64,000 nt of DNA from Planctomycetota bacterium (GCA_014584395.1 JACTMY010000011.1:1-64000), one strand, 5' to 3'; counted from the first letter of the stretch, positions 2,767 through 26,302 are shown. Notes: a model not told the origin generated them from the letters alone. Program-made: numbers and translations.

Positions 2767-2965
2767 ATGAGAACAGGGATATACGCTGCCTCGTGGTGAC
2801 GCGTTGGAGATCGCTCGCCAATTCGCCGTGACCTTGGTCCAAGATGGACAGAAATCGGCCCAGCCAAGACGTGCAGCAAAGATATTCCCTTTTCAGAGCC
2901 GCTAAAACTGGTTACATTCAGCATAGACGCGGCATGGACTTTTGCATTGGGACGATCAACGCCTC

Positions 2966-5900
2966 ATGGGCAAAGCATACGTTGAGGGTGACAAACCGCT
3001 GCCCGGATACCAGCTAGTGCGCTTCCTGGGGCGCGGAGGGTTCGGTCAAGTCTGGAAAGCCATCGGCCCGGGCGGCATCGAGGTCGCCCTCAAAATCATC
3101 GATCTGCAGGGCAGTGCCGGGATCAAGGAGTTTCGCGGCATTCGACTTTTCAAGCAAATCCGCCATCCCAATCTGGCTCCCATCACAGCTTTTTGGCTCA
3201 AGGACGAAGCGGGCAACCTGGTCGGCGAATCGGATTCCCCCGACGGCAACACCAGTACGATGATCATGTCCCGCGCCAAGGAACTGCTCATCATCATGGG
3301 GCTGGGCGACAAGAATTTGCTGGACCGCCTCAAGGAGTGCCAGGCCGAGGGCAAGATGGGCATTCCCCCGGATGAATTGCTGGATTACATGGAGGAATCC
3401 GCCAAGGCCATCGATTATTTGAACAGCCCGCGGCATGATCTGGGTTCCGGCCCAGTGGCGATTCAACATTGCGATATTAAACCGCAGAATATCCTCATCG
3501 TCGGCGGTTCGGCGCAAGTCTGCGATTTTGGCTTGGCCCGCGCCCTAAGCGATTCACGAACCACGGCCGCCTCGGTGTCCGCCGCCTATGCCGCACCTGA
3601 GGTGCTCACCAGCAATCAGCCGAGCCGATTCACAGATCAATACTCCCTCGCCATCAGCTACATCGAACTCCGCACGGGCAACCTCCCCTTCAATACCAGC
3701 TTTCCCGCCAGCATTCTCTACGCCCATTTGCAAGGCAAGCTCGACCTCTCGCAACTGACCCCTGAAGAGCAGATCGTCATTCGCAAGGCGACCGCCCCTA
3801 ATCCTGAAGATCGCTATCCGACCTGTCTGGATATGGTGAAGGCCCTCAAACAAGCCTTCGCCCCCAAAACCACACCAGCGATGGAGCCAACCCCAAAGGT
3901 CAAATACGGCGGCCGGGCCGGAGTCGGCGTGGAATTAGTCCCTGGATACAAGTTGATCAAGCTCCTGGGCAAGGGGAGCTTTGGCGAAGTGTGGGAAGCC
4001 ACGGCTCCCGGCGGCAAACACGTTGCCTTGAAAATCATCCGCAATTTGGATGCTCCCGCAGGCAAGCAAGAATTTAAAGCCCTGGAAACCATCAAGGGGA
4101 TCGACCACAACAATTTGATGGAGTTGCACGCATACTGGCTGATTGATCGCGAAGGGCAAATCATCACCGACGAAATGCGTGAGAAACCGCAGGCCCCTCA
4201 AGCGGCCACGCTGGTCATCGCAGGGAAATTGGCCAAGATGCATCTGGGTCAGAGGCTTCGTGAATGCCAGGAAAAGACCGGCAAGGGCATCCCCGTTAGC
4301 GAATTGCTGCGTTACATCCGCGAATCGGCTGAGGCCATTGATTTTCTCAACACGCCCCAGCATCGCATGGGAGATAAAATCGTCGCCATTCAGCACCGCG
4401 ACATCAAACCGGAGAACATTCTTCTGGCGGAGGGCGGCGCCAAGGTGGCCGATTTTGGCCTCGCCAAGGTCTTAGAGGACACGTCCGCGATCGTGCATAG
4501 TGAAAGTGCCGGGCTGACGATGGCCTACGCGGCCCCGGAATTGTTCCGCGGTCGAGTCACGCAATGGACAGATCAATACGCCCTGGCCATCACGTATTAC
4601 CAATTACGCACTGGGGTTCTGCCCTTCTCCGGGGTCACCTCGGCGAACGACGTCGTGCAAATCCACGTCCAAGGGCGATTGGTCTTTGATCGCGTCCCTC
4701 CCCCGGAAGCCGAGGTGCTTCATCGAGCCACCTCGCTGGTGCCAGAAAACCGTTTCCCTAGTTGCATGGAGTTTTATCGATCCATTTACGATGCCTGTGC
4801 GGCCGAGGACGTTCTGGATGAGCCCGGCCTCGATGCTCCCCCTGGATCCTCGGGTCAACTGTCCCGGCGGCCTAGCAGTTCTAGTTCAGGCGCCGGTCTG
4901 GGAAAACGCAGTTCCAGCACGTCATCCATCCCCAAGGCCTCCTCGCGGCCCACGTCTCTCGACAAAACCATGGCCGGGTTTGAAGAGGATGAGGCTTACG
5001 GCGGCACTCGACCTGGATATGGCGGGGATCAACCAACCGTCCCGGTGCATCCCGAGGCACCTCACCGGGCCAGCACGAAAGCCACGGTGCGCTCCGATCA
5101 TGTCGAGGATTCATCGGCCACGATTCGAGTGGCGAGTCAAACCCCTTCCGCGACCAAGGGTAAAGTTGCAGAACGAAAAGCATGGCAAGATGAACGGCCT
5201 GGCGGCCGCGATTATCGACCTCCCCCCAAACCATCCATGGCGCCGTGGATTATCCTCATGTCGCTTCTGGCCATGGCGGGTTTCGGAGTTGGTGCATGGT
5301 GGTATTTGAAAAAATATCCGCCTGGAGAAGACCTTGAGACTTGGATTGTCAAACGGATCGATCAAAATCAATGGACAGAAGCCCTCAAACGCTTGGAGGG
5401 CGAGCAAGACATCAGCGATGACAAGCGAACGGAGTTGAAGCAGAAAATTGGCCAGTCATGGCTGTCGTCCTTGAAAAAGAAGTATGCCGAGGTTCAGGGC
5501 AAAGCCGATCTCGAGGAAGTGGCTGCACAGGGCAAGGAGTTCCTTGGCTACTTTCCTGACGAATCCAACGTCAGCGACATCGTTGAAGCCGCGCGCAAAC
5601 GGATCGGCGAACTGGTCGCCATGGCCAACGGCACGAAACCGACTCAAGCAACCCAAACCACTAAGCCAACGGTACCGATCGACACTCCTCCAGAACAGGA
5701 TCGAACCTTGGAGCGTTTCCGCGTGGTGGTCGCGAATCTAGGACCAGCGTTCGATTGGCCGACCCATGCGGACCACTGCCAGGAACTTATCAAAAAATAT
5801 CCACAAGTCAGTTGGCTGAAGCTGGCCTTGGCCGAGGCCTTGATGGAAAAAAGCAGCGAAGCGGAACCCTTTTCGGCACAGCAGGTCAGGGACTTGCTCC

Positions 5901-8494
5901 AACAAGCAGGTCAACCCTCCGAAGAAAAGGCCTATGCGATATATGTGAGAGCAGTGCTGGATTCCAAAAACCGGGCCAGGCGTCTGAGTGCGGAAAAAAT
6001 TATGGACGTGGCCCCCACGGATGCGTTTCTACAATCATCCGAGCATCGCAAAACCAGAGCGGTGGCCATTTTGCTGGAAGCAGCCATGGTGTTGCGGGTC
6101 ATCCCTGAAAAATTCCGACATCCCTTTGCAGGGGATGAGGAAGCCCAGTTGGCATGGAAATGGCTGCAGCAAGCTCGAAACTTCCTTCCCGACGCTCCTT
6201 GGCAAGCCAAGGAAGAATTGACGGAACTGCTGGCCGCCGAGGAAACCAAGCAACCCGCTCAAATCATGACTGCTTTGCTCAAGGGCATCTCGAATCGACT
6301 TGATCTGCAAGAAAAGCTCTCTCCGATGGAGCGCTATGAGGTCTATTGCCTGCGGCTCAAATACCCGCCAGCAACTCTCCAAGAACTTCTGCAAACCACA
6401 GCCATGGTGGAACAGCTTTTAGCGGCCCTTAAGTCGGATTTATCCTATCTCGATCTTGCGGATCAGTATCACTTGGTGTTTGAGCCGGCTTTGAAGATTG
6501 AACAGGTCATTGGAGAGCAGGAAAGCTCCATTCCCGAGGCTGAGCTAACCTCCTATCGCAACCGCATGGCCAAGATGCACGATGCCCTTGGCCTCATGAT
6601 CTTGGAAAATTTGTACACCCCCATGCCTATGTTCGAGGGTAAACATAAGGAACGAGCAGTCCAAGCATTCACTCGGGCCATTGAGCTGCAACCTAAAACA
6701 GCCGACTTTTACATTCATCGAGCCTCCGCCCTGAGCAAGCTCAATCGCGTGGAAGACCTTCCCACGATCCTCAAGGATGGCGAAACCGCCCGCGAACTCG
6801 ACGATCAACTGCCAGGCTCCCATGGATGGATTGCCTATGCCCTGCACCATCAAGCTCGAAGCCAACTCGACCTGCCAAAGAAGGAGCAGCAACTTCGAGA
6901 TGTTTTAAAGGGTTACGACCAAGCCATTCTGAAATCCAGTCAAGACGAGCGCTACAAAACCGAATGGACTTCTTGGAAGGTCAGCCGCAGCAGCGCCTAT
7001 GTCGAGTTGGCGAACTCGATGACGGAGAAAAATCTGCAACGGCTCAGGACCTTGCGCGGCGACGTGCTGCAAAAAGCCATCATTGATGCCCAGGAAGCCA
7101 TCCAAAGCCAGCCAAAATATCCCGAATTGGCCTACGAAGCCTTGGGCAACGCTCATGAAGACATGGCGATGTTCACGGGGCAAGTTCAACATTATCAGTT
7201 AGCCGATCAAGCTTTTGATCAAGCCATCCGCGCACGCAGGGACTTGCCCCATTCCTATGTTGCCCGGGGACGATGCTTATACCGAGCTATCATGGACGAA
7301 GCGGTGCCGAGGACGCAGTTTCCCTTGGCGATCAATTATCTGAACCAGGCCCTTAATAAGGGAAATGACACCGTCTATGGCGCCGAATCCCGTTTTTGGC
7401 TGGGGAAGATTTACTTCGAACAAGAGCAGCACCAGCGCGCGGAAGATGAATTCAAGGCATCACTCGAGGCTTTTAAAAAATTAGGGCGCATCGATTGGGT
7501 GGCCGCTTGTTATCAAACTTTGGCCTTGAACGCGGCCCGGGTAGCGGGCGCCAGCCGGGCTGGAAGTCAAGATCCTTTGGGAACCCAAGGGTTTGCCAAG
7601 GCCCGCGGCTACGTTGACAGTCTCGATCAAATCCACTCTCCATTGAGCAAGGATTTGCTGATCAGCATTATGAAGATCGAAGCCCAAACTTCGGCTAATG
7701 CTGGCTTTTTCGCTCAAAATCAAAGAAAGACGGAGTTGGCTGACCAGGCGTATCAACGAGCCTTGAGCATCGCCAAGGAGTTGCAGGACCTGGGCGAAAA
7801 GGCCCAGAGCGCCATCATCGAAATCGAGGTGCTCAATTACAAGGGCCAACTTCAAGAAGCCCTTGATCTGACCACCAAAAAACTGCCCCGCTCATTGGAG
7901 GCCGTCAAGCCAGAGGAATTGGAGCTTTTGCTCAAGCGTGCCGAGCTGATGCTCCTCGTCAAAGACAAGAAAGATTTGCCCTCCTCTAAAGCCATCGACC
8001 TGTTGGATATTCGGAACATATTGGTCCGCTGTGAACAATTGCTGGATGCCGATCAACATGATGCCAAATTGGTCGCCATTCTCTATGGCCGCATCGGTGA
8101 GTTTTATTATCGCATGATCATTCAACTACCTCTCGTCCCGACCAATCCTGAAGAAGAACGCCTTAAACGATCTTTTGGCGACAAAGCGATTTCGTTTCTC
8201 AAAAAAGCGTTGGGATTGCACCCCAAGCACATCGAGTCCTATGCCTGGCGGGCCGCGCTCGCGGACATCTACTCTGAATTGGATATTCATCCAGTGAAGG
8301 ATTTATCCAAATTAAGCTCGGGACAAAGGAAAGAATTGATGGAGAAGTGCGAGGAAGCCATTAAACTGCTCAGCGAAGTCCAAGCCGATCCCATCTTCAA
8401 AAGAATGACTGAAGGGTTTCGGCGCCAGATCAGCGACTCCAAGGACAAACTAGAGAAACGGTTGAAGGAAATCCAAGCCCTCGGCTCAACTTGA
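2966..8494 (+). CDS. Tandem Ser/Thr kinase, membrane-anchored, with TPR region
   Basis: A protein of about 1842 residues with two Hanks-type kinase domains in series. Domain 1 (about residues 12-285) has the loop GRGGFG, the ATP lysine K43, H168-C169-D170 in place of HRD, and DFG at D187. Domain 2 (about 325-600) has GKGSFG, K356, H477-R478-D479 and DFG at D496. A Ser/Pro/Thr-rich linker leads to one membrane segment near 757-780 ([17 protein letters not shown]). More than 1000 helical residues follow, with TPR-like stretches such as [15 protein letters not shown] and [19 protein letters not shown]. The kinases should be cytoplasmic and the repeats across the membrane. The HCD loop marks domain 1 as a non-RD kinase, which usually lacks activation-loop control. 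The open frame begins at a TTG (2942); the ATG at 2966 is preferred. It follows the FHA gene by 199 bases. Confidence 0.92.
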
Positions 8495-19665: not shown

Positions 19666-19684
19666 AGCCATTCCCGAAATGGCT
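19666..19684. promoter_or_regulatory. Inverted repeat in a divergent promoter region
   Basis: AGCCATT (19666-19672) and AATGGCT (19678-19684) are perfect arms around CCCGA. The repeat lies between the divergent glycosyltransferase and PH-domain genes, 51 bases before the latter's start. It could be an operator or a leader hairpin. Confidence 0.35.
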
Positions 19685-19735
19685 GATAATCTGACAACGT
19701 CCGCAGATGAGCCCTTGTCCAACCAGGAGCCCCCT

Positions 19736-20323
19736 ATGACTGATATGCGCCATCAAGCCATTTTGGGAGTGATTCCCCCCAGCGTGGCTGAAGCCATGAT
19801 CGCATGGCGGGTGCCGTCCTTGGCTGCCAGGCGAGGTTTGGCTCAATTGGTGGATCGCATCCAAGGAGTAGCGAAGTCCCTATTTCAAGCGACGATTCGG
19901 TTGCCCTTGTTTTTATCTATTTTTCTGATCGTCCCGGTAACCTTACTCTGTCTGGGAATCGCCTTGGTCGCTTGGCTGATGGCGGCGCCGTTCTACTTTC
20001 TCCGCGTCGTGCCCTTCTTGGGTCGCCGCTATTTATTGACGAATCAGCGGCTCGTCATCCAAAAATACCCCGCCAAGGGGATTCAGCCGATCCAGGAAGT
20101 GAAGTTAACGGAAATTCGGCGCGTTCAGGTGGTGCCCGGGTCGGAAATGCCCTTTTACCTTGCCGCTGATTTAACGATCTTAGGCGAAGCAGATAAGCCA
20201 TTAATGACGTTGCCGGGCGTCCCCGAATTCGAAAATTTCAAGGTCAATATCGAAGATGCTTATAAGGCGTGGGCTCGTGAAATGCCAAAGGAACAGGTCT
20301 GTCCCGCCTCCGCCATGAAATAG
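19736..20323 (+). CDS. Membrane protein with bacterial PH domain
   Basis: A 195-residue protein with two adjacent hydrophobic segments (about residues 52-75 and 78-95), then a bacterial pleckstrin-homology domain recognised by RRYLLTNQRLVIQ, where the 'LTNxRL' strand is typical, and IQEVKLTEIRRVQVV. Such proteins are membrane-anchored scaffolds of largely unknown role. AGGAG lies 6 bases before the ATG at 19736; the frame extends to 19679 without a ribosome binding site. It diverges from the glycolipid glycosyltransferase and converges on the prenyltransferase operon. Confidence 0.82.
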   Translation: MTDMRHQAILGVIPPSVAEAMIAWRVPSLAARRGLAQLVDRIQGVAKSLFQATIRLPLFLSIFLIVPVTLLCLGIALVAWLMAAPFYFLRVVPFLGRRYLLTNQRLVIQKYPAKGIQPIQEVKLTEIRRVQVVPGSEMPFYLAADLTILGEADKPLMTLPGVPEFENFKVNIEDAYKAWAREMPKEQVCPASAMK

Positions 20324-20398: not shown

Positions 20399-21310
20399 TT
20401 ATGTAACGTAAAGCCAACGACCGAACCATAGAGCTGGCAACGCGAGCACGAGCAGCAACAAGCCGGGTTCACCCACCACGGCAAATGCTAAACAGGCATC
20501 CAAGCCAATCACTCCCAGAATGGCCATCTTGACGGCCCGCTGAACGTGCTCCGCGCTCTTTCGAAACACGGGCCGCCATACGAACCAGGTCAAGTAACTC
20601 GTCAAGAGGACCATGAGCAGAATGAAGACCCATAAATGACTGTCCGTATGAACGGCATGTGATCCAATAATTATCGCTAGAAAAGTCATGCTGAGACTCA
20701 GAACCATGACGCCGCTGCCCAACCATAGCGAAACGGCTTTCGATTTCCCTGCTTCATCTTTTGCTAGGATGGTCACGCCAACAATGTAACTGCCGACCGT
20801 CAGGGCAGCTAATCGGGCTGACTCATGAAAAAGCCCGGAAACTGACGCTCCAAGCAGGACATTCCATGCTCGACATAACCCCATCCCCGCGGGCCCAACC
20901 CACGTCGCTTTCAATCCAACGTTATAAATGACAATAGAGAAGGTTAGAGCAAGAGCGATCAGCAGCGGCAAAATTCCGACAAAGAGAGACACCATTCCGG
21001 CACTCAGACATCCCAGGGCTAGGAGACCCCATGCCCATCGTCCAGCACGTTGTAGACTGATTTGCCCCGAAGGAATCGGGCGAAAGGGTCGTTCTCGCGC
21101 ATCGATCTCGGCATCCATGACATCATTGAGCGCCATGCCGCCCGTGTACAAGCAGGTGGAAATCAAGACCAATCCGAACCCCATCCCCCAATATGCCCAC
21201 GACCCGTCCGGCAAGCCCGCGGTGATGAGATATCCCAAGGCCACGTCTGCCCATGCGGTAAAGACATTGGGAAAACGGACCAGTTGAAGGATCGTCCGAG
21301 CGCGTGCCAT
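20399..21310 (-). CDS. eboC-like: EboC-like UbiA-family prenyltransferase
   Basis: Integral-membrane prenyltransferase of the UbiA superfamily, 303 residues with about eight hydrophobic segments. The first Asp-rich motif is NDVMDAEIDARERPFRPIPSG split over residues 62-82, with the NDxxDxxxD core that binds Mg-prenyl diphosphate. The second motif is weaker (AKDEAGKSK near 185). CLYTGGMALND before motif 1, GPAGMGLCRAWNVLLGAS after it, and GSYIVGVTILAKDE match, from memory, the EboC subgroup, linked to the ebo gene clusters of cyanobacteria and other bacteria, not ubiquinone UbiA. It is the last gene of a four-gene operon, 22 bases after the TIM-barrel gene. AGGA lies 10 bases before the ATG. 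The acceptor is unknown; an inositol-derived polar group is plausible from context. Confidence 0.85.
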   Translation of the reverse strand: MARARTILQLVRFPNVFTAWADVALGYLITAGLPDGSWAYWGMGFGLVLISTCLYTGGMALNDVMDAEIDARERPFRPIPSGQISLQRAGRWAWGLLALGCLSAGMVSLFVGILPLLIALALTFSIVIYNVGLKATWVGPAGMGLCRAWNVLLGASVSGLFHESARLAALTVGSYIVGVTILAKDEAGKSKAVSLWLGSGVMVLSLSMTFLAIIIGSHAVHTDSHLWVFILLMVLLTSYLTWFVWRPVFRKSAEHVQRAVKMAILGVIGLDACLAFAVVGEPGLLLLVLALPALWFGRWLYVT

Positions 21311-21332
21311 GAGGTTACAATCCTAATCGTCC

Positions 21333-22181
21333 TCAAGCCAAGGAAGGCAACCATGTCAGCACGCGCTCTCGGGCCAGGCGGGCGGCCTGATCGGGATCAT
21401 CCACATAGGGATAGAGCTCAATGGTCACCCAACCTGGGTAGTTCACCTGCTGCAAGGCGGACAAGGTGCCCGTTAAATCGATCGCTCCCTCTCCAGGAAT
21501 CAGATGATGATGCACGCGCGTGTCGGCGATGTCTTCCAAATGAACATGGCGAATCAGCGCTTGCAAGCGACGCACCGTGGCTACAGGATCGTCACCCACA
21601 CAATAGAAATGGCCCACGTCGAAATTCAAACCCACGGCGGGATGTTTGAATCGTTGGTCAAAGCGTTCATATTGTTCCGCTGTTTCAATCAATAATCCTG
21701 GTTCTGGCTCAACCAATAACAACACACCCACCGCCGCTGCATGATCCGCGACCGGCGCGAGGGTTTCGATAAAGATTTCCAGCCCATCCTCCCACGATTG
21801 CCCTGGCTCCAAGGGACCGCCAGGCTCGGTCGTGATGCACGGCGCGCCCAACTCAGCCGCTAAATCCAACGCTCTACGCGTGTGATCGATCCTGACTTGT
21901 CGATAAGGAGCATAAGGTTCGATCCAGGAGGGATGCCAATAACGTTGCCTGGCGTCATTGATGGCGTTCATCATGAAGGCATTGATATTGGAAATGGATA
22001 AATGATGATCTTTGAGGGCTTGGCGAATGGCTTGCTTTTGCTCTGCGAGTAGAAATGCAGGCCAAGCATGCGGCACATCGGCCATGATCTCGATGCCGCG
22101 ATAGCCCAACTGAGCGATCCTCTTGGCCGCCTCGGAAAAGCTAAATCGCAAATAGGCATTGCTGCTAAAGGCCAACCGCAT
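21333..22181 (-). CDS. Sugar phosphate isomerase/epimerase, TIM barrel
   Basis: A 282-residue member of the AP-endonuclease-2/xylose-isomerase-like family. These are (beta/alpha)8 barrels that usually bind one divalent metal and act on sugars, inososes or related polyols. The likely metal ligands are seen in order: Glu in LLVEPEPG near residue 155, Asp-His in NFDVGHFY near 190, His in IRHVHLEDI near 215, and Glu in VTIELYPY near 258. It begins MRLAFSSNAYLRFSF, with no signal peptide. It is 8 bases downstream of the DcuC-like gene and 22 upstream of the prenyltransferase, so translation is probably coupled. With inositol-phosphate synthase as first gene, an inositol- or inosose-type substrate is the best guess. 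Confidence 0.88.
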   Translation of the reverse strand: MRLAFSSNAYLRFSFSEAAKRIAQLGYRGIEIMADVPHAWPAFLLAEQKQAIRQALKDHHLSISNINAFMMNAINDARQRYWHPSWIEPYAPYRQVRIDHTRRALDLAAELGAPCITTEPGGPLEPGQSWEDGLEIFIETLAPVADHAAAVGVLLLVEPEPGLLIETAEQYERFDQRFKHPAVGLNFDVGHFYCVGDDPVATVRRLQALIRHVHLEDIADTRVHHHLIPGEGAIDLTGTLSALQQVNYPGWVTIELYPYVDDPDQAARLARERVLTWLPSLA

Positions 22182-22189
22182 GAGCTAAC

Positions 22190-23632
22190 CTACCTCGAGA
22201 AAAGTGATTTGAATCCGTAAGATGGTGCTTCCGTTTGATTGCGAAACGTGAGTTGACTCGGCATCGGTGCCGTAAGGGTCTGATGCGTGGATGCTGATTC
22301 CAAGGGTCCAGCATCATGTGCTATGGTCAGCATGGCGTAAACCATCACCACGCCTATGCCCGCCAACAAAGGCCCAGCCACTCTGCGGCTCAATTCGGCT
22401 GGCTTGCATTGAACCAGCGTGGAGGACATCAGGGTGACGGCGGCAATCGGCGACATGGTGCGTCCCGCCGCAGATCCAATCGACACCAGGCCGCCAATGG
22501 CGATCGGATCCACGCCCAAAAGCCTCGCCGGCTCAACGAAGAAAGGATACAAGCTTTGCGTCGCCGCCATGCCAGAGCCGCTGATAAAAGCGAATCCCAA
22601 TGGGATCAATGTGGCCAATGGAATGAGAAGTCCAGGGAACTGCACGATGAGGCTCTTCAAAATGGCGGTCAAGCCGCTCACTTCAATCGCCTGGCCAAAA
22701 CAACTGGCTACCACGATCAACGAAATGATGTGCGTATAGGCATAACCCGCTCCTTGGAAGAACGTCGTGGCCGTCTGGCGGATGCTGGCTCGGTCCGATA
22801 AAGCCGCGGCAATGATGCCCACGATCATGGCGGCGCCGATCAGTCTTGCTTCGTAACCTTGCTTGCCGGGCTGAACGAGCCAATCCTCGGGAATATGGAC
22901 CCAGTTGAGCGGTGGGCCGCTTAGAAATAGAAGAATGAGCGGCAGAATGGGGATGGCGGCCTTGATCAGATTGACTTTGAAAGCGGCCTCTTGATCGTTG
23001 TTCGCCGCCTCTCCCGCGTTCAATGAGCGACGCTGCCTCCACCAAAGAACCACTGTGGCGGCCACAACGTGGATCATCAAGAACGGCATGAGCGTCCGAA
23101 TACAATCGCGGGAACCAATCTTTAATTCCCGTGCGATGGTGTTGAGTTCAGGAGCTCCAGGGTTGAGCAATTCCCCGCCGATGGACGACCCCAAGAGCAA
23201 TACGGCACCCACGGTCACCATCGGCAGGCCTGCCCGTTGCAGCAGCGGCACCAAGACGGTCCCCAGGGCCAAGGCTGTGCTGGATTGGCTGATGATGGGA
23301 ATATTGACCGTGAAGCCGATCAACACGCCTCCTGGAATTAAAACCCAGCGGAACTTTTGCAACGACCCGGTGAGCAGATGAATCAAATGCTGATCACAAC
23401 CGGTTTGCTTGAGGACGTGGGCAAACCCCATCGCGCAGCAAATGGGAACGATGAATTTTTCATCCGCCAAGGTGGAGAAGAAGGTGTGCAGCACCACTTC
23501 GGGCCGTCCCCCGATGCTGGCCACGGCGACGGAAGCCACCAGCAGGACCAATCGGACCTCCAGTTGTCTCATCACTGCCACGATGGCGAGGATGATGACC
23601 CCCAGGCTTGGCAGCCAGATCCAATCGTTCAT
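22190..23632 (-). CDS. DcuC-family carrier
   Basis: A 480-residue polytopic inner-membrane protein with about 11-12 hydrophobic segments, resembling the DcuC C4-dicarboxylate carriers. Recognisable parts are GFAHVLKQTGCDQHLIHLL near residue 70, SQSSTALALGTVLVPLL near 115, LLGSSIGGELLNPGAPE near 145, and the repeat-like FISGSGMAATQSLYPFF near 355. The substrate in this group is often not a dicarboxylate when the gene sits in a biosynthetic operon. Its ATG overlaps the stop of the inositol-phosphate synthase gene by one base (TGATG), so the two are translationally coupled. It could import a precursor or export the pathway product. Confidence 0.82.
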   Translation of the reverse strand: MNDWIWLPSLGVIILAIVAVMRQLEVRLVLLVASVAVASIGGRPEVVLHTFFSTLADEKFIVPICCAMGFAHVLKQTGCDQHLIHLLTGSLQKFRWVLIPGGVLIGFTVNIPIISQSSTALALGTVLVPLLQRAGLPMVTVGAVLLLGSSIGGELLNPGAPELNTIARELKIGSRDCIRTLMPFLMIHVVAATVVLWWRQRRSLNAGEAANNDQEAAFKVNLIKAAIPILPLILLFLSGPPLNWVHIPEDWLVQPGKQGYEARLIGAAMIVGIIAAALSDRASIRQTATTFFQGAGYAYTHIISLIVVASCFGQAIEVSGLTAILKSLIVQFPGLLIPLATLIPLGFAFISGSGMAATQSLYPFFVEPARLLGVDPIAIGGLVSIGSAAGRTMSPIAAVTLMSSTLVQCKPAELSRRVAGPLLAGIGVVMVYAMLTIAHDAGPLESASTHQTLTAPMPSQLTFRNQTEAPSYGFKSLFSR

Positions 23633-24846
23633 CAGGTTGACCGCACTTTGGTTACGTATTCCAACAGCATCTGACTTTGCTTGAAAAAGTCATGTTCCTG
23701 CACGCCCAGGGGATTTTTGAAAAAACACGCCAGGTGCGTCAAGGCCCCGACTTCACCCCGCCTTTGTGCCAAGGCCATGAATCGTGCCAAATCGATGACC
23801 AGCGGCGCGGCCAAGATCGAATCACATCCTTGCCACGTGAACTGCATCATCATTTTGACGCCCAGGAAACCTTCGAAATGAATATGATCCCAGGCCGTTT
23901 TCCAATCGTCGAGGGATTCGATGTATTCGATGGAAACATGCGTTTGAGGTGCATAACCCAAGATGGAAGAAATCACTTGATCCTTGGTTTGGATCTTCGA
24001 TGCCTTATTGGCGGGATCATTTAAGACGAGGCCGTCGCGATTGCCGAAGATGTTATGGCCGACCCAACTGAGCAGTTTCAGATGCCGCATGGCGAACATG
24101 GGGGCCAAGACCGATTTCAGCAACGTCTCGCCCGTCTTGCCGTCTTGGCCTGCCAGCGGCACGCGCCGTTCCTCGGCCAGCGCCAGGGCCGCTGGGAAAG
24201 AAGCTCCGAGAGAGGGAGTGAAATTAAGGTACGGCAAGCCCATCTCGATCGCCGCCAGGGCATAAAGCGTGCTGGCGGGCAAACGCGGCGGATCGTTCAC
24301 TTCATCCAGCATGCTCTTGAGTCGCGGCCAGTATTGATGAATTTCGCCGAGCGGCGTCGGCGGTTCGGTCGAGGCCACATTGACGATGATGAGCTGGTCG
24401 AGCTGATGTTGGTCGCGAAACTGGCGATAATCCGTTTGGATGTTTTCGATGATCCGCCATCCATTCGCGGACGATGGCGTCATGACCCAGTCCGCCAATC
24501 CTTGAATCGTTTGCCCGCTGCCTTGCACGGTCCCGGGCCGGATATTTTCCGTCCACGACTCCAGGACATCCTGACATGCAGCCATGAGCGGCTCGCTGAA
24601 AATCCCCGATCGCGCATGTAATTCCTTGAGCGAGATAACAAAAGTCGATTGTCGAACGTCGTGGCCGCCAACCACAAAAGACGCGGGAGCATCCAGGTCC
24701 AACCCCGCAAACAGGGGCAATTCCGTGACCAGTCCCGTCGAGGAAATGGAAGAGCACCTCAAGGCTGCCAGCCCCAAGGCCACGGTCGACCCCACCCCTC
24801 CCAGTGCGCCAATGAGCCATAAACCGATCTTTCGCGGAGCATTCAT
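23632..24846 (-). CDS. ino1: Inositol-3-phosphate synthase
   Basis: NAD-dependent enzyme that isomerises glucose 6-phosphate to 1D-myo-inositol 3-phosphate, the entry step to inositol compounds. The 404-residue protein has an N-terminal NAD-binding loop (IGALGGVGSTVALGL near residue 12), and the C-terminal catalytic signatures AGQDGKTGETLLKS near 242, SWVGHNIFGNRDG near 270 and LNDPANKASKIQTKD near 287, all typical of the family. It is the first gene of the operon, followed with a one-base overlap by the DcuC-like carrier. Inositol synthesis is unusual in bacteria outside a few phyla, and here it is tied to a transporter, a TIM-barrel enzyme and a prenyltransferase. Confidence 0.94.
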   Translation of the reverse strand: MNAPRKIGLWLIGALGGVGSTVALGLAALRCSSISSTGLVTELPLFAGLDLDAPASFVVGGHDVRQSTFVISLKELHARSGIFSEPLMAACQDVLESWTENIRPGTVQGSGQTIQGLADWVMTPSSANGWRIIENIQTDYRQFRDQHQLDQLIIVNVASTEPPTPLGEIHQYWPRLKSMLDEVNDPPRLPASTLYALAAIEMGLPYLNFTPSLGASFPAALALAEERRVPLAGQDGKTGETLLKSVLAPMFAMRHLKLLSWVGHNIFGNRDGLVLNDPANKASKIQTKDQVISSILGYAPQTHVSIEYIESLDDWKTAWDHIHFEGFLGVKMMMQFTWQGCDSILAAPLVIDLARFMALAQRRGEVGALTHLACFFKNPLGVQEHDFFKQSQMLLEYVTKVRST

Positions 24847-24909: not shown

Positions 24910-25147
24910 AATCCAGGTCTACGTGCCGCAGGCTTCAACCGCAAATCCTTTGATTTTCCCTCTGAATGGGTGAGACTGTAACATCTAGGAATTGTTGGGC
25001 GGTCACTTGACCCTGGCCAGACACTCCTTTACGATCATGAAGTATGGCATGGAAGGCATGACCTCCATGCGACTCGCACTCCGATGTCAAGCAAGCTTTG
25101 TTGACTGCTGTTCTTTCCATTCTGAGGGCGTCTGGATCCATGACGCG
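24910..25147. other. Divergent intergenic region
   Basis: This lies between the ino1 promoter candidate and the preferred start of the YrdC/phosphatase gene. The frame of that gene is open back to 24992, so part may be coding if an earlier start is used. No other feature is visible. Confidence 0.5.
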
Positions 25148-26302
25148 ATGATGCACATAGCGATTGCCAAAGACGCCGACGCCATTCCGGAAGGTTATCT
25201 CCCCCTTTTGGAAATCCTGACGCGCGGCGACTTATTGGGCTGGACGACCCCCTCACATGCATGGGCCTTGACGTCTCTGACTGGAGCAGATCGACTACTC
25301 CAAATCGCGCGTTCGACCCACAGCCGCGATTTACGGCTTTTCTTGCGCCGCCCCGCCGAGATGGCCGACTGGGTCCCCGATTTAAGCCAACGCGGACGGC
25401 GTTTTTGTCGCCGGGCTTGGCCCATGGGGTGCAGCATTCGATTCCACGACGGGTTCCAACAAGGCTTGTTCACTCGATTGCCCAAAACCCTGCGGCAGTG
25501 GATCGATCAGCAGGGCTACCTGACCTTGATGCATGGCCATAAAGATATTCTGAGTGACATGGCGTTGTCCCTGCGGCAACCACTCCTGTTCCTGGCTCAT
25601 CCTCCGGAAACGGACTTGACGCCCCACGTGGACGCCATGCTTTCCTTGCCAACGCCCAGCGAAGAGCCTGAGGGACCGGTGCTGGCCTGGCAAGAGGAAC
25701 ACGGCCACGTCATTGAAGGGGCGCTGGATCCAAACGTGCTCCAGAAGATGCACCAATGCATGGTCCTGTTTCTGTGCACGGGAAACACGTGCCGTTCGCC
25801 CATGGCCGCTGCCTTGTTTCAAAAAGGTTTGGCCGAAGCGCTGGGGTGCACCATGGATGCCTTGGGCGACCATGGATGGCAAGTGGTCTCCGCGGGATTG
25901 GCCGCAGCGCCGGGGATGGAAGCCAGCGAAGGCGCCAGAAAAGCGGTGGCTCCACATGGTCTCTCCTTGGAGTCGCACCGGAGCCAGCCCATCCACCTGG
26001 GATTGCTCGATGAAGCTGACCATATTTTCACCATGACACAAAGCCACCTCCAGGCCCTCCTGGGCCGACTCCCGCACCTCCATGCCAACTTAGAACTGCT
26101 TTCACCCGACGGGTTTGATATCATGGACCCATATGGGAGCGAACAACCGATTTACGATGAATGTGCGGCCATTTTGATGGAGAATGTGCAGCGGCGGCTG
26201 GCTGAATTGCTAAAAAGACCATTGGAGGTCATTGCCACACCGTCGGCCAGCACCGACATGCATCAACCCCGCGGGCCGGTCGAACCGGCAGGAGAGTTAT
26301 GA
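25148..26302 (+). CDS. Degenerate YrdC domain fused to low-molecular-weight phosphatase
   Basis: A 384-residue fusion. The C-terminal half (about 205-370) is a low-molecular-weight protein-tyrosine phosphatase: the P-loop is C210-TGNT-C215-R216-S217 and the general acid is D327 in DPYGS, so it should be active on phosphotyrosine, phosphoarginine or a similar ester. The N-terminal half aligns by eye with the YrdC/Sua5 threonylcarbamoyl-AMP synthase fold, but the key motifs are lost: PTDTVYGL reads TTPSHAWAL, the KxR loop reads ARSTHSRDL, and the SxN motif is gone. It probably binds a ligand or only stabilises the fusion. The start is uncertain; frames are open to 24992, and the ATG at 25148 suits the YrdC N-terminus. 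The stop overlaps rpiB by 4 bases (ATGA). Confidence 0.82.
   Translation: MMHIAIAKDADAIPEGYLPLLEILTRGDLLGWTTPSHAWALTSLTGADRLLQIARSTHSRDLRLFLRRPAEMADWVPDLSQRGRRFCRRAWPMGCSIRFHDGFQQGLFTRLPKTLRQWIDQQGYLTLMHGHKDILSDMALSLRQPLLFLAHPPETDLTPHVDAMLSLPTPSEEPEGPVLAWQEEHGHVIEGALDPNVLQKMHQCMVLFLCTGNTCRSPMAAALFQKGLAEALGCTMDALGDHGWQVVSAGLAAAPGMEASEGARKAVAPHGLSLESHRSQPIHLGLLDEADHIFTMTQSHLQALLGRLPHLHANLELLSPDGFDIMDPYGSEQPIYDECAAILMENVQRRLAELLKRPLEVIATPSASTDMHQPRGPVEPAGEL

Follow-up and report, generated by a model that had tools for sequence, protein, structure and literature searches.

A four-gene operon related to the ebo clusters lies in the 64-kb stretch of DNA (64,000 nucleotides, hereafter the window) that was analysed from a Planctomycetota bacterium (GCA_014584395.1 JACTMY010000011.1:1-64000), the assembly of which (G000) comprises 3.7 Mb in 20 contigs and is 87.4% complete. 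The genes encode an inositol-3-phosphate synthase (MIPS), a carrier of the DcuC family, a TIM-barrel protein resembling sugar isomerases (TIM-A), and a prenyltransferase of the UbiA superfamily related to EboC (Table 1). MIPS and DcuC genes overlap by one base, while gaps of 8 and 22 bases separate DcuC from TIM-A and TIM-A from UbiA, respectively. The first-pass annotation had described this operon, and it is real, as the open reading frames and the domain matches were all recovered with the same coordinates and spacings. Scans for sigma-70 promoters and terminators gave a signal no better than that of shuffled sequence, and no further ebo homologues were found in the window beyond those of the operon itself.

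Table 1. Genes of the operon, listed in the direction of transcription (positions are counted from the first nucleotide of the window).
Product	Position	Strand	Length and start	Family matches
MIPS (inositol-3-phosphate synthase)	23632-24846	minus	404 aa, ATG	PF07994 and PF01658
DcuC-family carrier	22190-23632	minus	480 aa, ATG	PF03606; NF037994, 202.5 bits
TIM-barrel sugar isomerase-like protein (TIM-A)	21333-22181	minus	282 aa, ATG	PF01261, 149 bits
EboC/SCO3242-type UbiA prenyltransferase	20399-21310	minus	303 aa, ATG	PF01040, 74 bits; NF035940

The ebo genes were defined in a 2016 study, in which an isoprenoid-cyclitol product was proposed (PMC5133447). They are widespread, having even been transferred into algal plastids, and in Nostoc they have a reported role in precursor export, being needed to export the scytonemin monomer. 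The same 2016 study mentioned three planctomycetes without ebo clustering, two of which had no eboD (PMC5133447).

Judging from their sequences, all three core enzymes of the operon (MIPS, TIM-A, and UbiA) look functional. First, MIPS contains both domains of its family and aligns over nearly its full length with the Archaeoglobus enzyme (1u1i, E=3.6e-84); its catalytic lysines K284, K288, K316, and K377, matching Archaeoglobus K274, K278, K306, and K367, are invariant in the 42 relatives compared. Second, the putative metal ligands of TIM-A (E158, D188, H214, and E255) are invariant in 43 of 43 family sequences, and such a Glu/Asp/His/Glu set is as expected for a metal-dependent isomerase of this fold. 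Third, the UbiA protein carries the invariant motif N62-D63-x2-D66-x3-D70 (NDxxDxxxD) of the superfamily, and its PF01040 match exceeds the cut-off. Its residues Y55 and R147, which align in position with Tyr-56 and Arg-145 of Ubi-297, the EboC protein of Maribacter, are invariant across 17 diverse EboC/SCO3242 proteins.

Among the NCBIfam models, the UbiA protein matches EboC best (NF035940, 185.7 bits), followed by the SCO3242 family (152 bits), a DGGGP-synthase-type family (74 bits), and chlorophyll synthase (<40 bits). In a tree of 43 sequences, a single group (support 97/99) unites the EboC and SCO3242 proteins with the UbiA proteins of haloarchaea and of the class; inside it, the resolution is poor and the window protein has no definite place. 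E. coli UbiA, MenA, and CyoE fall outside this group, as do two other UbiA proteins of the window genome, one of them a heme O synthase (above the cut-off) and the other UbiA/MqnP-like; a quinone or heme enzyme was rejected on these grounds. Thus, the best model, the tree, and the hallmark residues all bear out the first-pass annotation, in which the protein was called EboC-like and a place inside the quinone or heme clades was named as evidence against it. A scan of genome contigs with UbiA revealed only three weak loci.

Recurrence was assessed in 61 genomes of the order and 149 genomes sampled across the class, genes being considered adjacent at gaps below 1.5 kb; contig ends make the adjacency counts lower bounds. 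A UbiA gene of the EboC type is present in 60 of the 61 order genomes and 148 of the 149 class genomes. The MIPS and TIM genes are adjacent in 49 of 72 genomes that have both, and the TIM and UbiA genes in 62 of 86, with strand and order identical every time. Contiguous MIPS-TIM-UbiA loci, again with fixed order and strand, occur in 33 class genomes from 20 genera and four families, and MIPS directly precedes UbiA in 13 further genomes without TIM-A. This arrangement is well beyond chance. Scattering in close relatives, which had been named in advance as evidence against a functional unit, applies in part: the genes are dispersed in many genomes, but their order is fixed wherever they are adjacent.

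No other genome examined has all four genes, DcuC included, in this order. The carrier scores well above the NF037994 cut-off of 100 bits and is a DcuC transporter; genes of this family are present in 44 of the 61 order genomes, yet they adjoin MIPS only in G000, G003, and G004 (a count that excludes G039-G060, where MIPS positions were not searched). As these are three genera of one family, outside which the gene is unlinked, DcuC was rejected as a component of the conserved core. We read it as a lineage-specific addition, which might transport an inositol-type or organic-acid compound, and the suggestion that the product has its own carrier is weakened accordingly.

Evidence for the role of MIPS comes from its distribution relative to EboD, the cyclase of known ebo clusters. 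A profile built from five EboD proteins encoded on named plasmids split the 149 class genomes cleanly: 38 scored 395-472 bits, and the remainder at most about 210 bits, which is the AroB level. EboD was not found in the window genome, where the best match (178 bits) is of AroB level. MIPS only is present in 104 genomes, EboD only in 37, both in one, and neither in seven (Fisher p ~1e-26, an optimistic value, as genomes are treated as independent). Safer arguments are provided by the genus counts (57 MIPS only, 29 EboD only, one both, five neither) and by the occurrence of both cyclase states within six families, which means that the pattern does not reflect one ancient split. This near-perfect mutual exclusion upholds the earlier proposal that MIPS takes the cyclase role. 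In the sole genome with both genes, G109, the EboD contig has 67.9% GC and the MIPS contig 61.0% GC, and contamination is possible. Six of the seven genomes with neither (G138, G141, G144, G145, G147, G152, and G162) carry EboC together with TIM-A or EboE; the lack of both cyclases may reflect the use of a third one or gaps in the assemblies. Finally, the EboC of the EboD-type genome G100 is sister to those of the MIPS-type G074 and G109 (51-52% identity), which suggests that the EboC enzyme tolerates either cyclase.

A second exclusion involves the TIM barrels. TIM-A only is present in 86 of the class genomes, EboE only in 60 (every match above the curated cut-off), both in none, and neither in three, which are 77-89% complete. 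EboE was not found in the window genome, which has a different PF01261 barrel. All four combinations of the cyclase and TIM-barrel swaps exist (71, 32, 25, and 11 genomes). The best NCBIfam matches of TIM-A are myo-inosose dehydratase and keto-gluconate epimerase, with scores far under the curated cut-offs (IolE, 64 bits against 290; IolO, 61 against 300), which leaves it outside the iol families. TIM-A was rejected both as a true IolE, given these scores, and as an EboE, from which it is separate. Very probably, then, these are replacements within the ebo pathway, MIPS for EboD and TIM-A for EboE.

In a tree of the TIM barrels, TIM-A (window, haloarchaea) is separated from TIM-B (Streptomyces, Gemmatirosa, many class members), which is orthologous to the isomerase of the Streptomyces cluster and often lies directly 3' of UbiA. 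At a threshold of 1e-30, TIM-B was detected in 49 of the 104 MIPS-only genomes and in none of the 37 EboD-only genomes; therefore, it seems to travel with MIPS. Identity to the Streptomyces protein is 42-54% in the fetched examples matching in the same frame. Examples of TIM-B genes include L113 7736-8590, L114 8151-8987, L126 2693-3526, and L087 9738-10634, among others. In Nonomuraea (L093 9948-11423) TIM-B and EboA are fused in one 491-aa frame; a fusion of this type in Actinobacteria was already remarked upon in 2016 (PMC5133447).

Outside the class, relatives found by tblastn on plasmids were read from their annotation. The pattern extends to other phyla and to archaea: MIPS lies inside or beside ebo genes in Streptomyces, Gemmatirosa, Nonomuraea, and three haloarchaea, and EboD is absent there. 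Conversely, MIPS was not found, within the stretch read, in the EboD-type clusters of Aureibacter, Mycetohabitans, Deinococcus, Salipiger, and Azospirillum. The remaining ebo genes are not missing from the relatives of the window bacterium: EboB is present in 58 and EboF in 59 of the 60 other order genomes, in both cases unlinked to the operon. Hence, the statement that other ebo genes are absent holds for the window, but the system is to be regarded as an ebo variant rather than a separate pathway.

Taken together, these data make it probable that the operon is the core of an ebo variant of the inositol type, as follows. MIPS, in the slot of EboD, would convert glucose 6-phosphate to inositol 3-phosphate; TIM-A, a barrel of the metal type in place of EboE, would modify the cyclitol; and the EboC-type intramembrane prenyltransferase would attach a polyprenyl chain to this cyclitol or its phosphate, in a reaction akin to that of DGGGP synthase on glycerol phosphate. 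The outcome would be a prenyl-cyclitol lipid or carrier, and in the relatives the unlinked EboB (a TatD-like hydrolase) and EboF (a PF01663 phosphodiesterase) could complete the pathway. The model takes directly from the data the identity of the genes, the conserved catalytic residues, the recurrent order, the two exclusions, and the pairing in Streptomyces, Gemmatirosa, and haloarchaea. From these we infer the enzyme activities, the order of the steps, the acceptor, the product, and the role of the product. In MIPS-type systems, EboC rather probably uses an inositol-derived acceptor, and the product is likely a prenylated inositol-type cyclitol.

As the chemistry of MIPS is known and it freely takes the place of EboD alongside the same EboC, the ebo product could be inositol-equivalent everywhere. 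Tentatively, EboD-type systems might make an equivalent cyclitol. A still broader generalization, which we offer as speculation, is that in all carriers the product is an inositol-equivalent prenyl-cyclitol lipid, which would constitute a new class of membrane lipids or export carriers found in bacteria, archaea, and some algal plastids.

The principal competing explanation is that there are two products, MIPS-type and EboD-type systems sharing EboB, EboC, and EboF while prenylating different cyclitols (inositol-type C6 and valiolone-type C7, respectively). The substrate of MIPS is glucose 6-phosphate. EboD, for its part, has been placed near sedoheptulose-7-phosphate cyclases (PMC5133447), and the restriction of TIM-B to genomes with MIPS means that the MIPS route has an extra enzyme of its own. 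However, the tree does not sort the EboC proteins by cyclase type, those of family f3 being close to each other across the two types, and switching inside six families would be easier with the same or an equivalent acceptor. We regard two products as a realistic prospect, albeit with less than an even chance. Ordinary inositol supply, with MIPS serving phospholipids or osmolytes and standing beside UbiA incidentally, would agree with the housekeeping role of MIPS in many organisms and with the location of MIPS and UbiA on different contigs in many relatives. It is nevertheless improbable, as it gives no reason for the exclusion of EboD and leaves unexplained both the fixed order in 20 genera and the presence of MIPS inside full ebo clusters (Streptomyces, haloarchaea). 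An operon for inositol or sugar catabolism, in which an IolE/IolI-like TIM-A and DcuC handle inositol-type substrates and UbiA takes no part, would fit the best NCBIfam matches of TIM-A and the carrier family of DcuC, but is very improbable given the low scores of those matches, the biosynthetic nature of MIPS, the constancy of UbiA (the most constant gene of all), and the clusters elsewhere without DcuC.

Several points weigh against an inositol-type ebo variant. The UbiA protein scores below the curated EboC cut-off (185.7 against 250 bits), and its SCO3242 score is likewise below the respective cut-off; the UbiA tree was built without DGGGP synthases, either as outgroup or as members, and has several long branches. 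EboB (TatD-like) and EboF (PF01663) were not found in the 87%-complete window genome at 1e-10. EboA is not in the 64-kb window, and no genome-wide EboA search was made. The 13% incompleteness could explain one loss, but both less easily; the pathway may be reduced in this bacterium, or parts of it may be unassembled, and because of these gaps it is the relatives that carry the general conclusion. The genomes are not independent samples, and no evident substitute cyclase was seen beside UbiA in six of the genomes with neither MIPS nor EboD (in a listing of open reading frames, not family-annotated). Finally, Ubi-297 farnesylated quinolines in vitro, and its reported acceptors include neither sugars nor cyclitols (PMC9235831).

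Should an inositol-type variant be correct, replacement of an uncharacterised cyclase by an enzyme with a known reaction points to inositol or inositol 3-phosphate as a candidate prenyl acceptor that can be tested, and the two exclusions provide a clean system for complementation tests. The MIPS/EboD swap could also explain the 2016 remark on planctomycetes without eboD. A text search of the main ebo papers found no mention of inositol. No paper describing MIPS or TIM swaps in ebo was found either, although most subscription journals and preprints lay outside the search, and novelty is not proven by such absence. RefSeq annotation shows SCO3242 clusters, for which a published interpretation was not found.

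Other genes were observed around the operon and its counterparts. A 214-aa protein without a family match adjoins UbiA in the window (19679-20323, plus strand) and is kept beside UbiA in L037 and L040, of the same family, where UbiA has no adjacent MIPS. A peptidase resembling M2/M3 (~570 aa) adjoins UbiA in L047 (6041-7735) and at six other loci of the order, mostly downstream and on the same strand. Four order genomes have the bifunctional riboflavin gene ribBA, identified in L047 by family search, upstream of MIPS and in divergent orientation (L045 11202-12626, L047 10892-12160, L048 11250-12557, and L056 10899-12236). In L056, MIPS-TIM-UbiA is followed by a gene for a Gfo/Idh/MocA-type dehydrogenase (6852-7751), possibly an inositol-type oxidation step. 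Elsewhere in the window, on the plus strand, there are genes for an 1850-aa protein with two tandem protein-kinase domain matches (2942-8494) and for a protein with a low-molecular-weight phosphatase domain (24992-26302), the N-terminal ~250 aa of which have no Pfam match; the latter gene is directly followed by rpiB.

Compared with known systems, the closest solved structure to the window UbiA by sequence is DGGGP synthase (6m31, E=2.3e-12), an archaeal lipid enzyme of the UbiA superfamily that alkylates a hydroxyl of a phosphorylated polyol; however, it is a much weaker match than EboC (74 against 186 bits) and has another gene context. Ubi-297 (PMC9235831) shares the hallmark Tyr and Arg positions and the Asp-rich motif, but comes from an EboD-type ebo cluster; it farnesylated six of 14 aromatic acceptors, 8-HQA being the best. 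The canonical ebo cluster (EboA-F) of cyanobacteria, Bacteroidota, Pseudomonadota, and Deinococcota (PMC5133447, PMC6282210) also combines an EboC-type UbiA with a cyclase and a TIM barrel, and its EboB and EboF are present in the genomes of the window's relatives, whereas the window type replaces EboD by MIPS and EboE by a TIM barrel from a different subfamily, with mostly dispersed genes and, in the window, DcuC. The SCO3242-type cluster of Streptomyces, known from annotation only, contains MIPS adjoining an EboC-type UbiA and no EboD, but differs in having EboA, TatD/EboB, EboE, and EboF in one operon and an isomerase that is TIM-B, not TIM-A; the cluster of Gemmatirosa includes EboE, EboB, EboF, UbiA, MIPS, and an isomerase. 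In the plasmids of Halocatena, Natronococcus, and Halobaculum, which carry EboB, TIM, UbiA, and TIM together with MIPS-EboF, the same type of UbiA is flanked by MIPS and a TIM-A-like barrel (42-44% identity) with no EboE or EboD nearby, as in the window; these clusters differ in their linked EboB and EboF, a second TIM-A-like paralogue, and a sometimes divergent MIPS.

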